Source: Campylobacterota bacterium
GTDB lineage: Bacteria > Campylobacterota > Campylobacteria > Campylobacterales > Sulfurovaceae
Direction of reading: 5' to 3'
Assembly (NCBI GenBank): GCA_015494795.1
Contig: WGAM01000020.1
Coordinates: 1 to 36,665 of the forward strand
Length of the DNA stretch: 36,665 bases
Positions 2,875-9,522 of this stretch are shown in pieces. Positions within the stretch are counted from its first letter, which is position 1. Each line of letters starts with the position of its first letter. The position numbers were made by a program, and so were the translations under genes. The notes beneath the pieces were generated by a model, which worked only from the letters and a program-made list of their open reading frames with translations, ran no database searches and was not told the DNA's origin.

Positions 2875-4155
2875 ATGAGAAAAACAAGAGTTTTACTATT
2901 ATTAATAGTATTAACTTTAAATATATATGCAGAGTGTTCAAACTCAAATAGATTTTGGGCTAATAAGTTAACTCATAGTAGGAGTTTAGAGCAGTTTTTT
3001 ATAGATAACTATAGTTGTAAAGATGAATTTTATAAATCTCTTAATAGGTCTCAAAAGATATATTTTGATACGGTATTATATCCTTATGGATTAACTAAGA
3101 GACAATATATAAATAGGTGGTTAGCTATTGCTTATAATGATAAAAGTTTTTTTAAAAAGTTTAATTTTTTTAATAACTACTTTGCTACACATAAAGATAA
3201 TATTACAAATTATCAACTACACTGCTTTCAAAAACAGAGAGGATTTAGAGAGCCTACTTCTAAAGAGATATTTTATAGTGAGTTAACAAAAAGAGGTATG
3301 CTTAATGATGTATCTTATCTATATCCTCTAATTAGATGGAGTTATGAGAATAGTGGAGTAGATATGAGATTAAGTGCTAAAAGGGTAGAAGAGGGAGAGA
3401 GATATTTTGGTATTAAAAGAGGTAAGATAGGAAATAATACTCAATTTGCAAGATATATAGCTATATTTAATCAAGAGTTTAGCCAAGTAGCTACAGAGCT
3501 ATCTAAAAATAGTAGAATATCTAAAATAGATGCTTATAAACTTCTAGTTATTTTAACATATTTAGAATCAAGAGGAAATATATTTGCAACCTCATCAACA
3601 GGAGCTTTTGGTCCACTTCAACTTACTATGCACTACTATATGATGTATGGTGAGCCAAATAACCCATTTAATCCCAAATCTAGTATGATAAAACTTGCTA
3701 ATAAGTTTATCTACTATAGTAGAATAGGAAAAAGTTTAGATGCCTCTGTAGTTGCATATAAATCTGGTACTCTTACTAAGTGTCAAGATGAGGTTAATAA
3801 TAGTGATGTGGATTGTAGATACTACAATGATTTTAAGGGATATATGTATGGTATGGAGGGTTTGAGTAGTAAATCTGAAATATCTAAATATCTAACAGGA
3901 AAAAGCTATATCTCAAAAGAGTTAGACTCTCTTAAAAGGTCGAGAAATCCAAATGGACTTAAATATTATGAGCCATATCAATATGCAGTATTAAAAAGAG
4001 GTGTATTAAAAGATAGAGCATTAGATACTCTATATATGAGTGGAGAATTTTTTAAATCTTTAGGAAAAATGAAGCGTTCAGATATATATTCTCTCCAAAA
4101 TAGATATGGAGTTAATAGAGTTGGAGTAGTTTCAGATAAAAAGGTATGTTACTAA
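2875..4155 (+). CDS. Exported lytic murein transglycosylase (SLT domain)
   Basis: 426 residues with a signal peptide (MRKTRVLLLLIVLTLNIYA) and Cys residues suited to the periplasm. The SLT/lysozyme-like domain lies at about 215-310: the catalytic Glu231 sits in L-E-S-R-G, followed by the S-T-G-A-F-G-P-L-Q-L motif (241-250), and an N-P-F-N-P-K-S-S segment matches the N-x-x-N-I-x-x-G region of Slt enzymes. Such enzymes cut the glycan between MurNAc and GlcNAc, leaving 1,6-anhydroMurNAc. The helical N-terminal 200 residues are unassigned. An AAGGAAA ribosome site precedes the ATG. The gene converges on the SEDS gene with a 7-base gap and no obvious terminator, so a functional link with that wall-synthesis operon is possible but not proved. 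Confidence 0.85.
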   Translation: MRKTRVLLLLIVLTLNIYAECSNSNRFWANKLTHSRSLEQFFIDNYSCKDEFYKSLNRSQKIYFDTVLYPYGLTKRQYINRWLAIAYNDKSFFKKFNFFNNYFATHKDNITNYQLHCFQKQRGFREPTSKEIFYSELTKRGMLNDVSYLYPLIRWSYENSGVDMRLSAKRVEEGERYFGIKRGKIGNNTQFARYIAIFNQEFSQVATELSKNSRISKIDAYKLLVILTYLESRGNIFATSSTGAFGPLQLTMHYYMMYGEPNNPFNPKSSMIKLANKFIYYSRIGKSLDASVVAYKSGTLTKCQDEVNNSDVDCRYYNDFKGYMYGMEGLSSKSEISKYLTGKSYISKELDSLKRSRNPNGLKYYEPYQYAVLKRGVLKDRALDTLYMSGEFFKSLGKMKRSDIYSLQNRYGVNRVGVVSDKKVCY

Positions 4156-4162
4156 TATCTTT

Positions 4163-6301
4163 TTATCTCACTTTTATATATTTTAAATAGTTTAAATTAA
4201 ATACTACTACAAATAGATATAGCATTAAAAATAGTACTAAAATACCTTTTGAGTAGGTTAAAAATGGCAGTGGCACATCTGTTAGAGGGATAATCTGTAA
4301 AACAGAAGCCATATTTATAATAAAATATGAGAGCATATATGCAATAAATACACTATTTATCCCATACATAAATTTAAATACCTCATTCTCTCTACTATAT
4401 AGACTCATAGACTTTTTAAATGATAGAGATAGTAACATTAGTGCAGATAGAAGTGTTAATACTCCAATATGTCCAAATATATTACTAAAAAATGCAAATA
4501 TAAAATCTGTATGAATTGCTGGTAGTGGTAAAAAACTATTATCTATAAAATTTGATGGAAGCATAGAGCTATTTTTAATTAGGAAAATTCCTCTAGCTAC
4601 CTGCTCATATCTATATAGAAAATATTGTGTCGATGGCTCTATCTCTTGAGCAAAAGGGTTAGTCCACATAGCATATCTAACATTATCTTTTAACTCTAAA
4701 TGGTAAAAAGCAATCATCATTAAAATAACAGCTAAAAATGCTCCAACAAGCCATAAGATTTTTATATTAAAATTATCTTTAAATAGAATAAAGAGAATAG
4801 TTAAAGCTAAGGCTACCTGTAGAATAGAACCTTTATCTTTAATAACAAATATGGTTCCAAGTAGAAGAATAAAAAATAGAGATAAAAATCCAAGATATGC
4901 CAACTTATTTCTACCAAATGAGTGGTGAAATAGAAGAGTAACCAATAGAAATATAAAGAATTTTGTAGTCTCTATAAAAACCATTCCCTGCCCCTCTTTT
5001 ATAAGTCCCACAATAGATAATATAAATATTGTAGCTAATAGAAAGACACTAGCAAATATAATATGTCTATATATATTATTATTTATATAGTTTCTTGCAC
5101 TATCTAAAAATAGATACTTTTTACCATTTCTTAAAAAAACTATAAATAGCATAAAAATAGAGAATATAAATAGCTGTTCTCCTAAAAAGACCCCCATGGA
5201 TTTTGGAATTGAGAGAATATGTGTTGAGGAGTATATATTATTTTTAAATATCAACATAAAAAGTATTAAAATAATAAAATAACTAATAGTAGCTATTTGA
5301 GAGGCTTTTACTATATTTTTAGCATGATATAAAATGGCTATAATAGCTCCAAATGTTAACATCATACCATATACAACTATCTCTGTAAATAGACTACCTT
5401 TTGCATATATATTAAATTGGTAAAAGTACATAACTGTAAAGTTTATATATGAGGCTAAAAATAGAAAAGCTAAAAGTATTGTAAAGTAGAGTATAGGGTG
5501 GATAATTGCCCAGTGGTTCTCTCCTTTTGCATACTCTGTCATCTTTCTTACTATAAAAAATAGAATTGTAGCAAAAGAGATAAATATAAATGATGTAACT
5601 CCCCATAGCCATAATAGACTACTCTTTACAACACCGACCTTATCTCCTACTACAATATCTGGATATGTTGTTGTTGTATATAGATAGAATAGATTTGTAG
5701 GTGATAGAAGATTTAGAGATACATTATCTAATATAATATTATCTCCCTCTCTATATATCTTATAGTTTGAGTAACCTATTCGTATAAAATCTCCATTTTT
5801 AACTCTTGTTCTATCTATATATTTATTATCCTTTTTTAGTGTAATTCCCAATTTTTCACCTATACTATTTTGTGTAGGTGAGATATTTTGAAGTAGAAGA
5901 TTATTAACTATCGCTTTTCTCTTATCTGTTAATAGAATAAGTGTGCCTATATAGTCACTATTTGGAGGGTCTAACTTTAATAGAAGATGACTATTTACTG
6001 CTAATTTATTTGTTAAGTATGTATGTTTTCCATCATCATCTCCACTACCAATAGTTACAGATTTATTATTTTTAATTGGAAATTTATAATAATCTACAAA
6101 ACTAATATTTTTATTTAGTATTAAATCAAAATATAGAAGTGTAATAATAATCCAAGCAAGAGATGTAAGTAGTGCTATTAATATACCATAAGCACTTTTT
6201 GTTGTAACATTTCGTTTATTTATATCAATGTATATTTTTGTAAAAAATAGAATAAAAGCTACTAGAAATAGTAAAATAGCTATTGAAATAATAGGATACA
6301 A
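4163..6301 (-). CDS. SEDS-family (RodA/FtsW-like) membrane protein with N-terminal FHA-like domain
   Basis: 712 residues, almost twice the usual RodA/FtsW length. Two membrane helices (5-24, 37-58) come first, then a soluble beta-rich region (about 66-205) with FHA-like features: SVTIGSG, VNSHLLLKL and VKNGDFIRIGYSNYKI. The canonical FHA Gly-Arg is Gly-Ser here. From about 227 there are many membrane helices with SEDS signatures near the C-terminus: LPAIHTDFIFAFF, whose Asp (about 599) matches the essential Asp of RodA/FtsW, and DVPLPFLTYSKG, the counterpart of GVPLPFISYGG. SEDS proteins polymerise lipid II into glycan strands. The usual G-E-E-L-G after the Asp is S-N-I-F-G. The start is TTG at 6301 with an AAGGAGAT site. 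It is last in an operon with a Ser/Thr kinase and a PP2C phosphatase. The SEDS call is strong; the FHA call is moderate. Confidence 0.82.
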   Translation of the reverse strand: MYPIISIAILLFLVAFILFFTKIYIDINKRNVTTKSAYGILIALLTSLAWIIITLLYFDLILNKNISFVDYYKFPIKNNKSVTIGSGDDDGKHTYLTNKLAVNSHLLLKLDPPNSDYIGTLILLTDKRKAIVNNLLLQNISPTQNSIGEKLGITLKKDNKYIDRTRVKNGDFIRIGYSNYKIYREGDNIILDNVSLNLLSPTNLFYLYTTTTYPDIVVGDKVGVVKSSLLWLWGVTSFIFISFATILFFIVRKMTEYAKGENHWAIIHPILYFTILLAFLFLASYINFTVMYFYQFNIYAKGSLFTEIVVYGMMLTFGAIIAILYHAKNIVKASQIATISYFIILILFMLIFKNNIYSSTHILSIPKSMGVFLGEQLFIFSIFMLFIVFLRNGKKYLFLDSARNYINNNIYRHIIFASVFLLATIFILSIVGLIKEGQGMVFIETTKFFIFLLVTLLFHHSFGRNKLAYLGFLSLFFILLLGTIFVIKDKGSILQVALALTILFILFKDNFNIKILWLVGAFLAVILMMIAFYHLELKDNVRYAMWTNPFAQEIEPSTQYFLYRYEQVARGIFLIKNSSMLPSNFIDNSFLPLPAIHTDFIFAFFSNIFGHIGVLTLLSALMLLSLSFKKSMSLYSRENEVFKFMYGINSVFIAYMLSYFIINMASVLQIIPLTDVPLPFLTYSKGILVLFLMLYLFVVVFNLNYLKYIKVR

Positions 6302-6315
6302 ATTATCTCCTTTCT

Positions 6316-8145
6316 CTATCTAAGAGCATATATTGAGAGGATTTTAAATCCAGAAGGTGTAGCCTTTAAACTTATAAGAGTATTACTTGTCCCCTCTGCC
6401 ACTTTTCCACTACTTGATACAACTCTATAATGTACTCTATTTTTTACATCACAATACTCTATGCCATTTTTTCTATATTTATATAGAATATCAAAAGAGA
6501 TTAACCTAAATTTTCTATGTATCCATTTATTATTATATCTTACCTTATCTCTATATATTTCCCTATGTGTAATATGATATAGAGAGAAATATCTATATAC
6601 CTTATAGTTATAGAATGATAGCATATCATTAACAGAATCTTTCTCTCCAGAAGCTATAAATCTTAATAGAAAATCTTGAACATTAGCTCTATTAAAAGGA
6701 GACTTATGAGATAGATTTATATTTTTACCCGGCTGAATCATTCTACCAAGTGATATATTGTTGTGTGTTGGAGTTGGAGTGTGATAAACTCTTGGAGTTG
6801 CAACTATCTCTATATTTTTATCTTTTGTAGGAGTTGGAGTGGGTGTAACTATCTCAATTGAACCATCTTCCTCTTCTATCTCCTCTTCATCATCAATTAA
6901 AGGAGAAGGGGTTGGAGTTGGTGATGGAGTAGGAGTTGGAGTATCTTTAATCTCTGGTATCTCTAATGGTTTAATCTCACTCTTAATCTCTTCTTCATCT
7001 TCTCTATTTTTTTCTATCTTCTCTTCTTTTGGTTTGTATGTTGATACACTTTGAGATTTATTTCTACTTTTCTCTTTATCAAGTTTTACTATCTTATAAG
7101 CATATCCTCCTAATGCTAAAAGTACAACTGATAAGAAAATACCAATAGTTGTAAACCAAGATTTTGTATTATCCTTCTCCTCTTTTTTAGGTGGTCTTTT
7201 ACTATTTTTTTTAGGAGATGGCTTAATCTCCTCTATATCTTTATCCTCTTTAAAATTAGTTTCATTTTGAGATAATAACTCCTCTATCTCTTCTAAATCT
7301 TGAAATCTCTCATCTGCATCAATCTTCGTCATTTTAAATAGAATATTTCTAAAACTAGAAGATATATTAAATCCATTTAAAATCTCTATAAATTCACTAT
7401 CATCAATAAGTCTATCTGTAATATTTGGTAGAGTCTCTTCATCTTCTGCCATAACTCTACATATTGTCATACCAATAGAGTATATATCGCTAAACTTACC
7501 AATAATAGCTCTTTTTTTTCCACTAAGTTCAGGTGGTGTATAGATAGGACTCTGAAAGGCAGTTACTGTTGTCATCTGATTATCTATATAGGTTCTATTT
7601 GTAGTAAAATCTATTATCTTATATATACCATCTTTAGTCTTCATAATATTAGATGGTTTTATATCTCTATGTAGAATATTTAAATTATGTATCTCCTTTA
7701 TTCCATGGATAATTTGAAGTAATAAATCTTTTGCCTCGTCTTCACTAAATGGTGGCACCTCTTTTAGATACTTATCTAAATCAATACCATCAATAAACTC
7801 CATAACTGAGTATAGTGTATTATTCTCCTCAAAATATCCATAAGCCTCTACTATATTTCTGTTTCTAATTCTCTGTAAAATATTTACTTCAGATATAATA
7901 TCTTCTTTAATTTTTGTAAAAATCTTTTTTGCTTCGGCTCTATTATATACAGTTTTCCCATCTCTATGTCTAAAAGAGAACTCTCTTGAAAATAGCTCCT
8001 TTATAACAAAAAAAGAATTTAACCTATGTATATCTTTAACTAAATATACAATTCCAAAGCCACCCTGCCCTAAAACTTTAACAACTTCATAGTGTCCACC
8101 TATCTTATACCCTATTGATAGATGCTCATTACTCTCATTAGTCAT
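6316..8145 (-). CDS. Membrane-bound Ser/Thr protein kinase (PknB-like) with extracytoplasmic NTF2-like domain
   Basis: 609 residues. The kinase domain (about 14-290) shows the Gly loop GQGGFG (26-31), Lys49 in FFVIKE, Glu86, catalytic HRDIKPSN (159-166), the metal Asp179 in D-F-T (the usual Gly is Thr181) and P-P-E (204-206) in the APE position. A charged juxtamembrane stretch leads to one membrane helix (about 330-351). Outside the membrane come an acidic and Pro/Thr-repeat linker (PTPTPTPSP and similar, about 400-460) and a C-terminal domain (about 487-609) resembling NTF2/SnoaL-like folds, with the R-D-K-x-R-Y-x-x-K-W pattern. It would phosphorylate Ser/Thr on cytoplasmic targets in response to an outside signal; the adjacent FHA-like SEDS protein is the natural candidate. 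The ribosome site AGAGGAGAG lies inside the end of the phosphatase gene, so the two are tightly coupled. Confidence 0.93.
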   Translation of the reverse strand: MTNESNEHLSIGYKIGGHYEVVKVLGQGGFGIVYLVKDIHRLNSFFVIKELFSREFSFRHRDGKTVYNRAEAKKIFTKIKEDIISEVNILQRIRNRNIVEAYGYFEENNTLYSVMEFIDGIDLDKYLKEVPPFSEDEAKDLLLQIIHGIKEIHNLNILHRDIKPSNIMKTKDGIYKIIDFTTNRTYIDNQMTTVTAFQSPIYTPPELSGKKRAIIGKFSDIYSIGMTICRVMAEDEETLPNITDRLIDDSEFIEILNGFNISSSFRNILFKMTKIDADERFQDLEEIEELLSQNETNFKEDKDIEEIKPSPKKNSKRPPKKEEKDNTKSWFTTIGIFLSVVLLALGGYAYKIVKLDKEKSRNKSQSVSTYKPKEEKIEKNREDEEEIKSEIKPLEIPEIKDTPTPTPSPTPTPSPLIDDEEEIEEEDGSIEIVTPTPTPTKDKNIEIVATPRVYHTPTPTHNNISLGRMIQPGKNINLSHKSPFNRANVQDFLLRFIASGEKDSVNDMLSFYNYKVYRYFSLYHITHREIYRDKVRYNNKWIHRKFRLISFDILYKYRKNGIEYCDVKNRVHYRVVSSSGKVAEGTSNTLISLKATPSGFKILSIYALR

Positions 8146-8148
8146 AAA

Positions 8149-9522
8149 CTACTCTCCTCTTAGTTGAGTTAAATTATTATCTTTTTTTACCACTTCATCT
8201 TTAGTAAATAGATTTAAAATTAGAAATGTTATAGATGATATTATAATTAAGATTATTATTATATTTTTTAATTGATTTAATCTATTTGTTATCTTTGTAC
8301 CTTTAGAAAATCTTCTATTTGTAGTATAACTTATACTCTGCCTCTCTATTTTCTTTGGCTCCTCTTCATACTCTTCATATATATCATCTACATCTATATT
8401 TGATGAAACTTTAGGAGAGTATCTAATAATCGTAACATTATCTGTAGGTATTGAGTTATATATATCTGCCTGTAATTTATCTATTGGTTTAATAAATGTC
8501 TCTTTATTAATATCTATCTTCTCCCAAAAGCCATCACTGCATAAAATTAACCTACTACTATTATATAGTATAGAGTGTTGAGTAAATATATTCTCTTTTT
8601 TTAAATTTCTCTTACCTAAAGTAAAAGCTAAAAGACTCTTATTATACTCTTTCTTCTCATCTTGAGTTATCTTGTTAGAGCGAAATAGAACCTCTCTTAC
8701 AGAGTGGTCTTGTGTTATCTGTCTAACCTCTAAACTATTATCTAGTTCATATATTCTACTATCTCCAATATGTGCAATATATAGATTTATCTTATCTACA
8801 ATAAGTGCAAGAGATAGTGTTGTACCTATTGTAGTAGTTATATTCTGTTCACTTGCATACTCTACTATCTTATGGTTTGCAAGATATAGTGTATCTCTTA
8901 ATAGATTTAAGATAGATTGATGATTAAATTTACTATTATCAAAACTCTTCTTTAAATCATTAATAATATAATCAACTGCCAATTTACTAGCAACCTCTCC
9001 AGCCTCTCCACCACCAACACCATCAGCTACAATTAAAAGAATAGCATTATTAAATTCCAAATAGTCTAAGTAATCTTGATTTTGAAGTCTTGTTAAACCA
9101 ACAGTAGAAAATAGCTCTACTCGATAATCATCTCTATCTATATTCTCGTCAATAATATCCCTTATATCATAATCAAAAATAGATAAAAGTATCTTTGGCT
9201 CATCTTCTCTTAATTTTAATACTTTATATAAAAATTGATAAATTCTTGGCTCTTTTACTCTTATACTATCTAACTCACCTCTATATTTGGAGATAGTTAA
9301 ATCATTATATAGATAGAGTCCTAGAATATATGTGATAGATTTATTACTAAATGATTTATCTATCTCATCACTAATACTATTTTTTCTATCTACTAACTTT
9401 ATTAGTTTTCTAGCCACACCAATTTTATTATTAAAATTTATATCTTTAAAGATATTAGGTGGAGTACCATCTTTAATCCAACTCTTTAGGTAGGTTTTTA
9501 TCTCTTCTATTAATATATTCAC
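8149..9522 (-). CDS. PP2C-type Ser/Thr protein phosphatase, C-terminal membrane anchor
   Basis: 457 residues. An N-terminal helical region of about 130 residues is unassigned. The PP2C domain (about 137-370) has R-L-Q-N-Q-D (145-150), VADGVGGG with metal-binding Asp167, IGTTLSLALI, HIGDSRIYEL (about 251-260), CSDGFWE with Asp330, and DNVTII with Asp361, so all metal ligands are present. After an acidic linker a membrane helix (about 420-440) is followed by a short tail of about 17 residues. This is the PstP architecture of actinobacteria apart from the extra N-terminal region. It should dephosphorylate targets of the kinase encoded three bases downstream. The start is GTG at 9522 after a weak AAAG site; a TATAAT box lies 36 bases upstream. 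Confidence 0.92.
   Translation of the reverse strand: MNILIEEIKTYLKSWIKDGTPPNIFKDINFNNKIGVARKLIKLVDRKNSISDEIDKSFSNKSITYILGLYLYNDLTISKYRGELDSIRVKEPRIYQFLYKVLKLREDEPKILLSIFDYDIRDIIDENIDRDDYRVELFSTVGLTRLQNQDYLDYLEFNNAILLIVADGVGGGEAGEVASKLAVDYIINDLKKSFDNSKFNHQSILNLLRDTLYLANHKIVEYASEQNITTTIGTTLSLALIVDKINLYIAHIGDSRIYELDNSLEVRQITQDHSVREVLFRSNKITQDEKKEYNKSLLAFTLGKRNLKKENIFTQHSILYNSSRLILCSDGFWEKIDINKETFIKPIDKLQADIYNSIPTDNVTIIRYSPKVSSNIDVDDIYEEYEEEPKKIERQSISYTTNRRFSKGTKITNRLNQLKNIIIILIIISSITFLILNLFTKDEVVKKDNNLTQLRGE

Follow-up and report, generated by a model that had tools for sequence, protein, structure and literature searches.

A conserved, clade-restricted operon for a PP2C phosphatase, a membrane Ser/Thr kinase and a divergent SEDS protein in Campylobacterota

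Introduction

Most known cases of Ser/Thr kinase control over cell wall synthesis come from Gram-positive bacteria and Actinobacteria, where it acts through PASTA kinases and FHA readers. The closest known system to the operon described here is the actinobacterial pstP-rodA-pbpA-pknB locus, and in the fuller fhaA-fhaB-pstP-rodA-pbpA-pknA-pknB arrangement a transmembrane PP2C phosphatase, a transmembrane Ser/Thr kinase and a SEDS protein are likewise clustered and tied to the wall (PMC6554272). The clustering of kinase genes with rodA and PP2C genes had already been noted in 2005 (PMC1262709). Firmicutes carry Stk1/StkP/PrkC–Stp1 pairs, in which an Stp1-like phosphatase likewise stands beside a wall-linked membrane kinase, and Listeria possesses in Lmo0421 an extra SEDS protein besides canonical FtsW and RodA, likewise of uncertain polymerase activity (PMC6624303).

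We analyzed a 36,665-nucleotide window from a genome whose host belongs to the Campylobacterota, as the original prediction from its sequence had supposed. That prediction described a phosphatase, a kinase and a SEDS polymerase carrying an FHA-like domain, working together as an actinobacterial-style phospho-switch. We find an operon that is real, conserved and, among the Campylobacterota genomes compared, restricted to one clade. With roughly even confidence we read it as an accessory module for envelope synthesis that is specific to this clade and governed by reversible Ser/Thr phosphorylation, with its SEDS protein (SEDS3) as output. The FHA part of the earlier claim should be dropped.

Results

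The operon lies on the minus strand of the window and comprises three open reading frames encoding the phosphatase (8149..9522), the kinase (6316..8145) and SEDS3 (4163..6301), whose products match Pfam PP2C_2 (E = 1e-16), Pkinase (E = 9e-39) and FTSW_RODA_SPOVE (E = 1.3e-11), respectively. Just 3 bp separate the phosphatase from the kinase and 14 bp the kinase from SEDS3, which bears out the original description of three genes with almost no gaps at these coordinates, and GGAG-type ribosome sites precede both the kinase start (ATG) and the SEDS3 start (TTG). A promoter scan of the DNA performed at chance level (41 sites found versus 40.6 expected). Convergent to the operon is a plus-strand gene (2875..4155) for a 426-aa SLT (lytic transglycosylase-like) protein (Pfam SLT, 1e-4), and an SLT-type gene is also convergent to the operon in the related genome G016 (L015:14441-15715). 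A defence role for the operon was considered and dropped, the matches being to generic kinase and phosphatase only.

Across 34 genomes of the genus, which may be Sulfurovum-like, and 396 others of the class, the module was detected in five of the former (the genome under study, G000, together with G016, G017, G005 and G006) and in none of the latter. SEDS3 itself was present in four of the 34 (G000, G016, G017 and G005), with no homologue at E<=1e-12 in the 396 other genomes of the class and none found on plasmids. Among these Campylobacterota relatives, the three-gene order is complete in G016 and G017; G005 fits the same order, with the operon spread over two contigs (phosphatase and N-terminal part of the kinase on C167, C-terminal part of the kinase and SEDS3 on C155), and G006 retains it partially, with the phosphatase gene adjoining the kinase gene before the contig ends. 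The genes upstream of the operon in G017 are unlike those in G000 and G016 while the order is kept, so the three genes travel or remain together. In an RNase Y tree, the five genomes group as a single clade with one change (support 100/99), and whole-gene dN/dS values of 0.08–0.32 show purifying selection on every gene of the operon.

The first gene encodes a 457-aa PP2C Ser/Thr phosphatase that matches NCBIfam Stp1_PP2C at 1e-42, has Stp1/PstP-type chains among its PDB matches and carries the motifs DGVGGGEAGE, GTT, GDSR, SDG and DN, so that both profile and metal-binding motifs place it in the PP2C/Stp1 type. A predicted transmembrane segment at residues 421–439 anchors it by its C terminus, as in PstP, and profile, motifs and anchor agree with its earlier designation as PstP-like. 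Its N-terminal region of ~135 residues (9118..9522) belongs to no recognized family, giving no Pfam match at E<=10.

The kinase (609 aa) is a transmembrane Hanks-type Ser/Thr kinase with a catalytic domain at residues 19–282 (7300..8091), a single predicted transmembrane segment (residues ~331–349, bounded at ~331–350 in the feature map; 7096..7155) and a C-terminal part of ~260 aa outside. The motifs GQGGFG, K49, HRD and PE are kept, with DFG replaced by DFT in every homologue covering that position, and the best PDB matches are of the S. aureus PknB/Stk1 type and StkP. A Pfam scan found no PASTA repeats, and the match to the PknB_PASTA model does not extend beyond the kinase domain. The extracytoplasmic domain of ~125 aa at the C terminus (6319..6696) has no family in Pfam and no solved relative in the PDB, and an 'NTF2-like' identity considered for it was dropped.

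This outside domain (residues ~484–609) recurs in secreted proteins of ~330 aa built as signal peptide–SH3b–X–SPOR, at seven of seven loci examined, and Pfam SPOR matches were obtained in all four such proteins scanned (E, 1e-6 to 5e-4). In G016 (L097), the gene immediately downstream of one for a class B penicillin-binding protein (PBP) encodes such a protein. SPOR domains and many SH3b domains bind peptidoglycan, and the occurrence of the kinase's outside domain otherwise in secreted SH3b/SPOR proteins points to a kinase that probably monitors wall state. Kinase domain, predicted membrane segment and outside domain accord with the original claim of a PknB-like kinase with an outside sensor domain, the sensor role being a probable one.

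SEDS3 is a candidate target of this kinase. Bacterial Ser/Thr kinases are usually pleiotropic, and related proteins that have only the kinase N-lobe and share its outside domain occur without a SEDS gene nearby, both of which would favor a kinase and phosphatase that regulate other wall or envelope proteins while SEDS3 is only co-transcribed. We consider this distinctly unlikely, since phosphatase, kinase and SEDS3 remain together while the surrounding genes change.

The N-lobe-only proteins, or conserved 'half-kinases', are membrane proteins of ~400–500 aa found in at least 11 genus relatives (about 19 by another search). They consist of a kinase N-lobe with a degenerate Gly-loop, no HRD or DFG and no C-lobe, joined directly to a transmembrane segment and the same outside domain as that of the operon kinase (L027:3927-5246, L028:6674-8098, L029:5940-7274, L030:7273-8790, L031:776-2218, L032:6058-7422, L033:5412-6728, L034:7156-8337, L035:5834-7069, L036:5983-7359 and L040:4712-5974). 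They occur in none of the five module genomes, a pattern with a chance of 0.011 that is confounded by clade. Other phospho-genes were seen as well. Contig C75 of G017 (L039:5123-11876) holds a separate cluster, unrelated to the operon, with a PP2C phosphatase, a kinase, an FHA protein that begins in a zinc-ribbon-like manner and an ABC transporter with two FHA domains. A second phospho-gene in G000 (C4, L061:4038-5690) encodes 550 aa with an N-terminal PP2C and a kinase part and adjoins a transporter-like gene; similar ORFs of ~550 aa occur in many relatives.

SEDS3 (712 aa) is the divergent third SEDS protein of its genome, the other two being ordinary (284–286 bits against FTSW_RODA_SPOVE). 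Its scores with the same model are low, at 37–44 bits, although the 44.5 bits of the Pfam scan exceed the curated cut-off of 26.4. Its core (residues 331–712; 4166..5311) aligns with the genome's own paralogues and with E. coli MrdB, the best PDB match (E = 7e-7). The catalytic Asp599, in the HTDFIFA motif of the large periplasmic loop ECL4 (HTDF; codon at 4505..4507), corresponds to E. coli FtsW D297 and is retained along with the E444/K447 pair, R542 and Y684. Other hallmarks are missing: ECL2 is shortened and has lost its Trp (E. coli FtsW W138), the Gly-Gly of ECL5 (G380/G381) is gone through a change from SYGG to TYSK, and an acidic residue, E375, occupies the position of the Arg/Lys-Gln motif. 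Substitutions at the Trp and Gly-Gly positions inactivate E. coli FtsW: the W138A and G380A variants act as dominant negatives and fail to complement, and G381D does not make septal wall (PMC8765783).

With the Trp of ECL2 and the Gly-Gly of ECL5 gone, the polymerase activity of SEDS3 is uncertain; such activity is plausible, not assured. The original label of RodA/FtsW-like polymerase agrees with the SEDS profile and catalytic Asp but not with these two features. These same losses, the acidic E375 and a Pfam score far below that of the canonical pair would also suit a protein that is not a peptidoglycan polymerase at all, acting instead as a sensor or regulator or as a synthase of another envelope glycan, under the control of the kinase and phosphatase, and Listeria offers a precedent in Lmo0421, a SEDS protein without FtsW or RodA function (PMC6624303). 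We judge this rather unlikely, because the catalytic Asp and the E/K pair are invariant among homologues, the core is under purifying selection and a co-distributed class-B-type PBP exists.

Relative to canonical SEDS proteins, SEDS3 has five additional N-terminal transmembrane helices and a large outside domain. Topology prediction gave 15 transmembrane helices with the C terminus inside and both D599 and the domain at residues 63–228 (5618..6115) outside, for three homologues at three thresholds; canonical SEDS controls were predicted correctly at the loosest threshold (10 helices, N terminus in, C terminus in) and less stably at stricter ones. The segment count agrees with the predicted periplasmic location: ten hydrophobic segments lie between this domain and the loop that bears D599, in a register with RodA/FtsW that is set by the Gln of the TM2 motif. 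The domain is beta-rich and conserved, with 60–93% identity among homologues, and selection constrains it no less than the SEDS core (dN/dS of 0.05 and 0.14 versus 0.10 and 0.16). AlphaFold2 modelled it with strands at low confidence (pLDDT 52 alone, 41 for whole SEDS3), and Foldseek found no match to this model in the PDB.

It is this domain that had been called FHA-like. The view of it as a cytosolic FHA-like domain fused to SEDS, which after the actinobacterial model would read the phosphothreonine that the kinase produces, can draw on the FHA-like layout of its residues (IG..., V..H, VN, GDxIxIG) and on a weak profile similarity to the FHA domains of the genus, which hhalign put at a probability of 3% and which 1 of 60 column shuffles equalled. 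We consider this reading very improbable. Pfam returned no FHA match for residues 63–228 at E<=10 in three homologues, although the same model finds true FHA domains of the genus at up to 2e-22. The phosphothreonine-binding Arg of the 'GR' motif has become Ser or Ala (GS/GA), and the Ser position of 'SxxH' varies among N, S and E, with the His and one Asn invariant. Moreover, the domain is predicted to be periplasmic in all three homologues at all settings, and from there it could not read cytosolic phosphothreonine, so no such switch would operate. The host genome itself contains no Pfam FHA domains, which the same search finds in G017, G015 and control genomes. Neither the FHA-like domain nor the actinobacterial-style FHA phospho-switch is thus supported; an outside domain removes the mechanism first proposed and leaves the idea of phospho-control in place.

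The operon contains no class B PBP, as originally observed. Elsewhere in the genome, however, and unlinked to the operon, lies a gene for a giant class-B-type PBP that is nearly confined to the clade (L056:1079-4669 on G000:C149); such proteins are also encoded at L057:7066-10683 and L058:4171-7770. Like FtsI and PBP2, this protein has one transmembrane segment, a C-terminal transpeptidase domain (1e-24) with SxxK, SxN and KTG motifs (STFK, SYN and KTGT) and no GT51 match; unlike them, it measures ~1200 aa, lacks a PBP_dimer match and begins with ~800 aa of sequence of no known kind. The SEDS3 beta-rich domain shows no similarity to it. The giant PBP was found in five of the 34 genus genomes (G000, G006, G016, G017 and G027) and in none of the 396 others of the class, that is, in four of five module genomes versus 1 of 29 other genus genomes (hypergeometric, 5e-4), a co-occurrence that may reflect shared ancestry only, as the module genomes are one clade. 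The two exceptions, G027 (giant PBP, module undetected) and G005 (module, giant PBP undetected), are both incomplete genomes. SEDS3 and the giant PBP evolve at nearly equal rates, with respective dN values of 0.034 and 0.041 to G016 and 0.137 and 0.145 to G017.

Discussion

Under the accessory-module reading, to which we give roughly even confidence, the cytosolic catalytic domain of the kinase would respond to wall state, probably sensed by its extracytoplasmic domain, and the membrane-anchored PP2C phosphatase would reverse its action. SEDS3, as a divergent RodA/FtsW relative, would probably polymerize glycan, perhaps with the unlinked giant PBP as its transpeptidase partner. Phosphorylation would fall on loops of SEDS3 that face the cytosol, or on a partner common to both proteins, and so tune an accessory synthase; because the 'FHA-like' domain is predicted to lie outside, such control would not take an FHA route. 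Support for a wall role comes from the sharing of the kinase's outside domain with SH3b–X–SPOR proteins and from the near-confinement of the giant PBP to the clade, which suggest a link to the wall stronger than a first reading of the window alone could see. The SLT-type gene that converges with the operon in G000 and G016 is a further link of this kind. More tentatively, and as a possibility that we would not favor, the operon may represent a third dedicated SEDS–PBP wall synthase in a Gram-negative clade, switched by a peptidoglycan-reading Ser/Thr kinase/phosphatase pair, which would amount to feedback in the style of PASTA kinases built from different parts.

If the accessory-module reading is true, this operon would show the same logic as the established systems arisen in Campylobacterota with other parts (a different sensor and no FHA), and it would permit direct tests of phosphorylation acting on a SEDS protein. 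Two further finds are a new outside domain that a kinase has in common with proteins of the SPOR type, and a giant PBP of unusual build.

The comparison with known systems makes both the likeness and the distance clear. Relative to the Firmicute Stk1/StkP/PrkC–Stp1 pairs, the kinase here lacks PASTA repeats, SEDS3 sits inside the operon and the host is a member of the Campylobacterota. SEDS3 differs from Listeria Lmo0421 in its five extra N-terminal helices, its large outside domain and its linkage to a kinase and a phosphatase. The original prediction saw in the operon the logic of the actinobacterial fhaB-pstP-rodA-pbpA-pknA-pknB locus, and that logic is indeed similar, but the membership differs: an FHA gene, pbpA and PASTA domains are all absent, and the outside domain of the kinase is of another kind (compare PMC6554272). 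In the Campylobacterota operon the SEDS protein is, moreover, divergent and has a beta-rich domain predicted to lie outside; it is the third of its genome, beside two ordinary SEDS proteins, and the only candidate PBP is giant and encoded away from the cluster.
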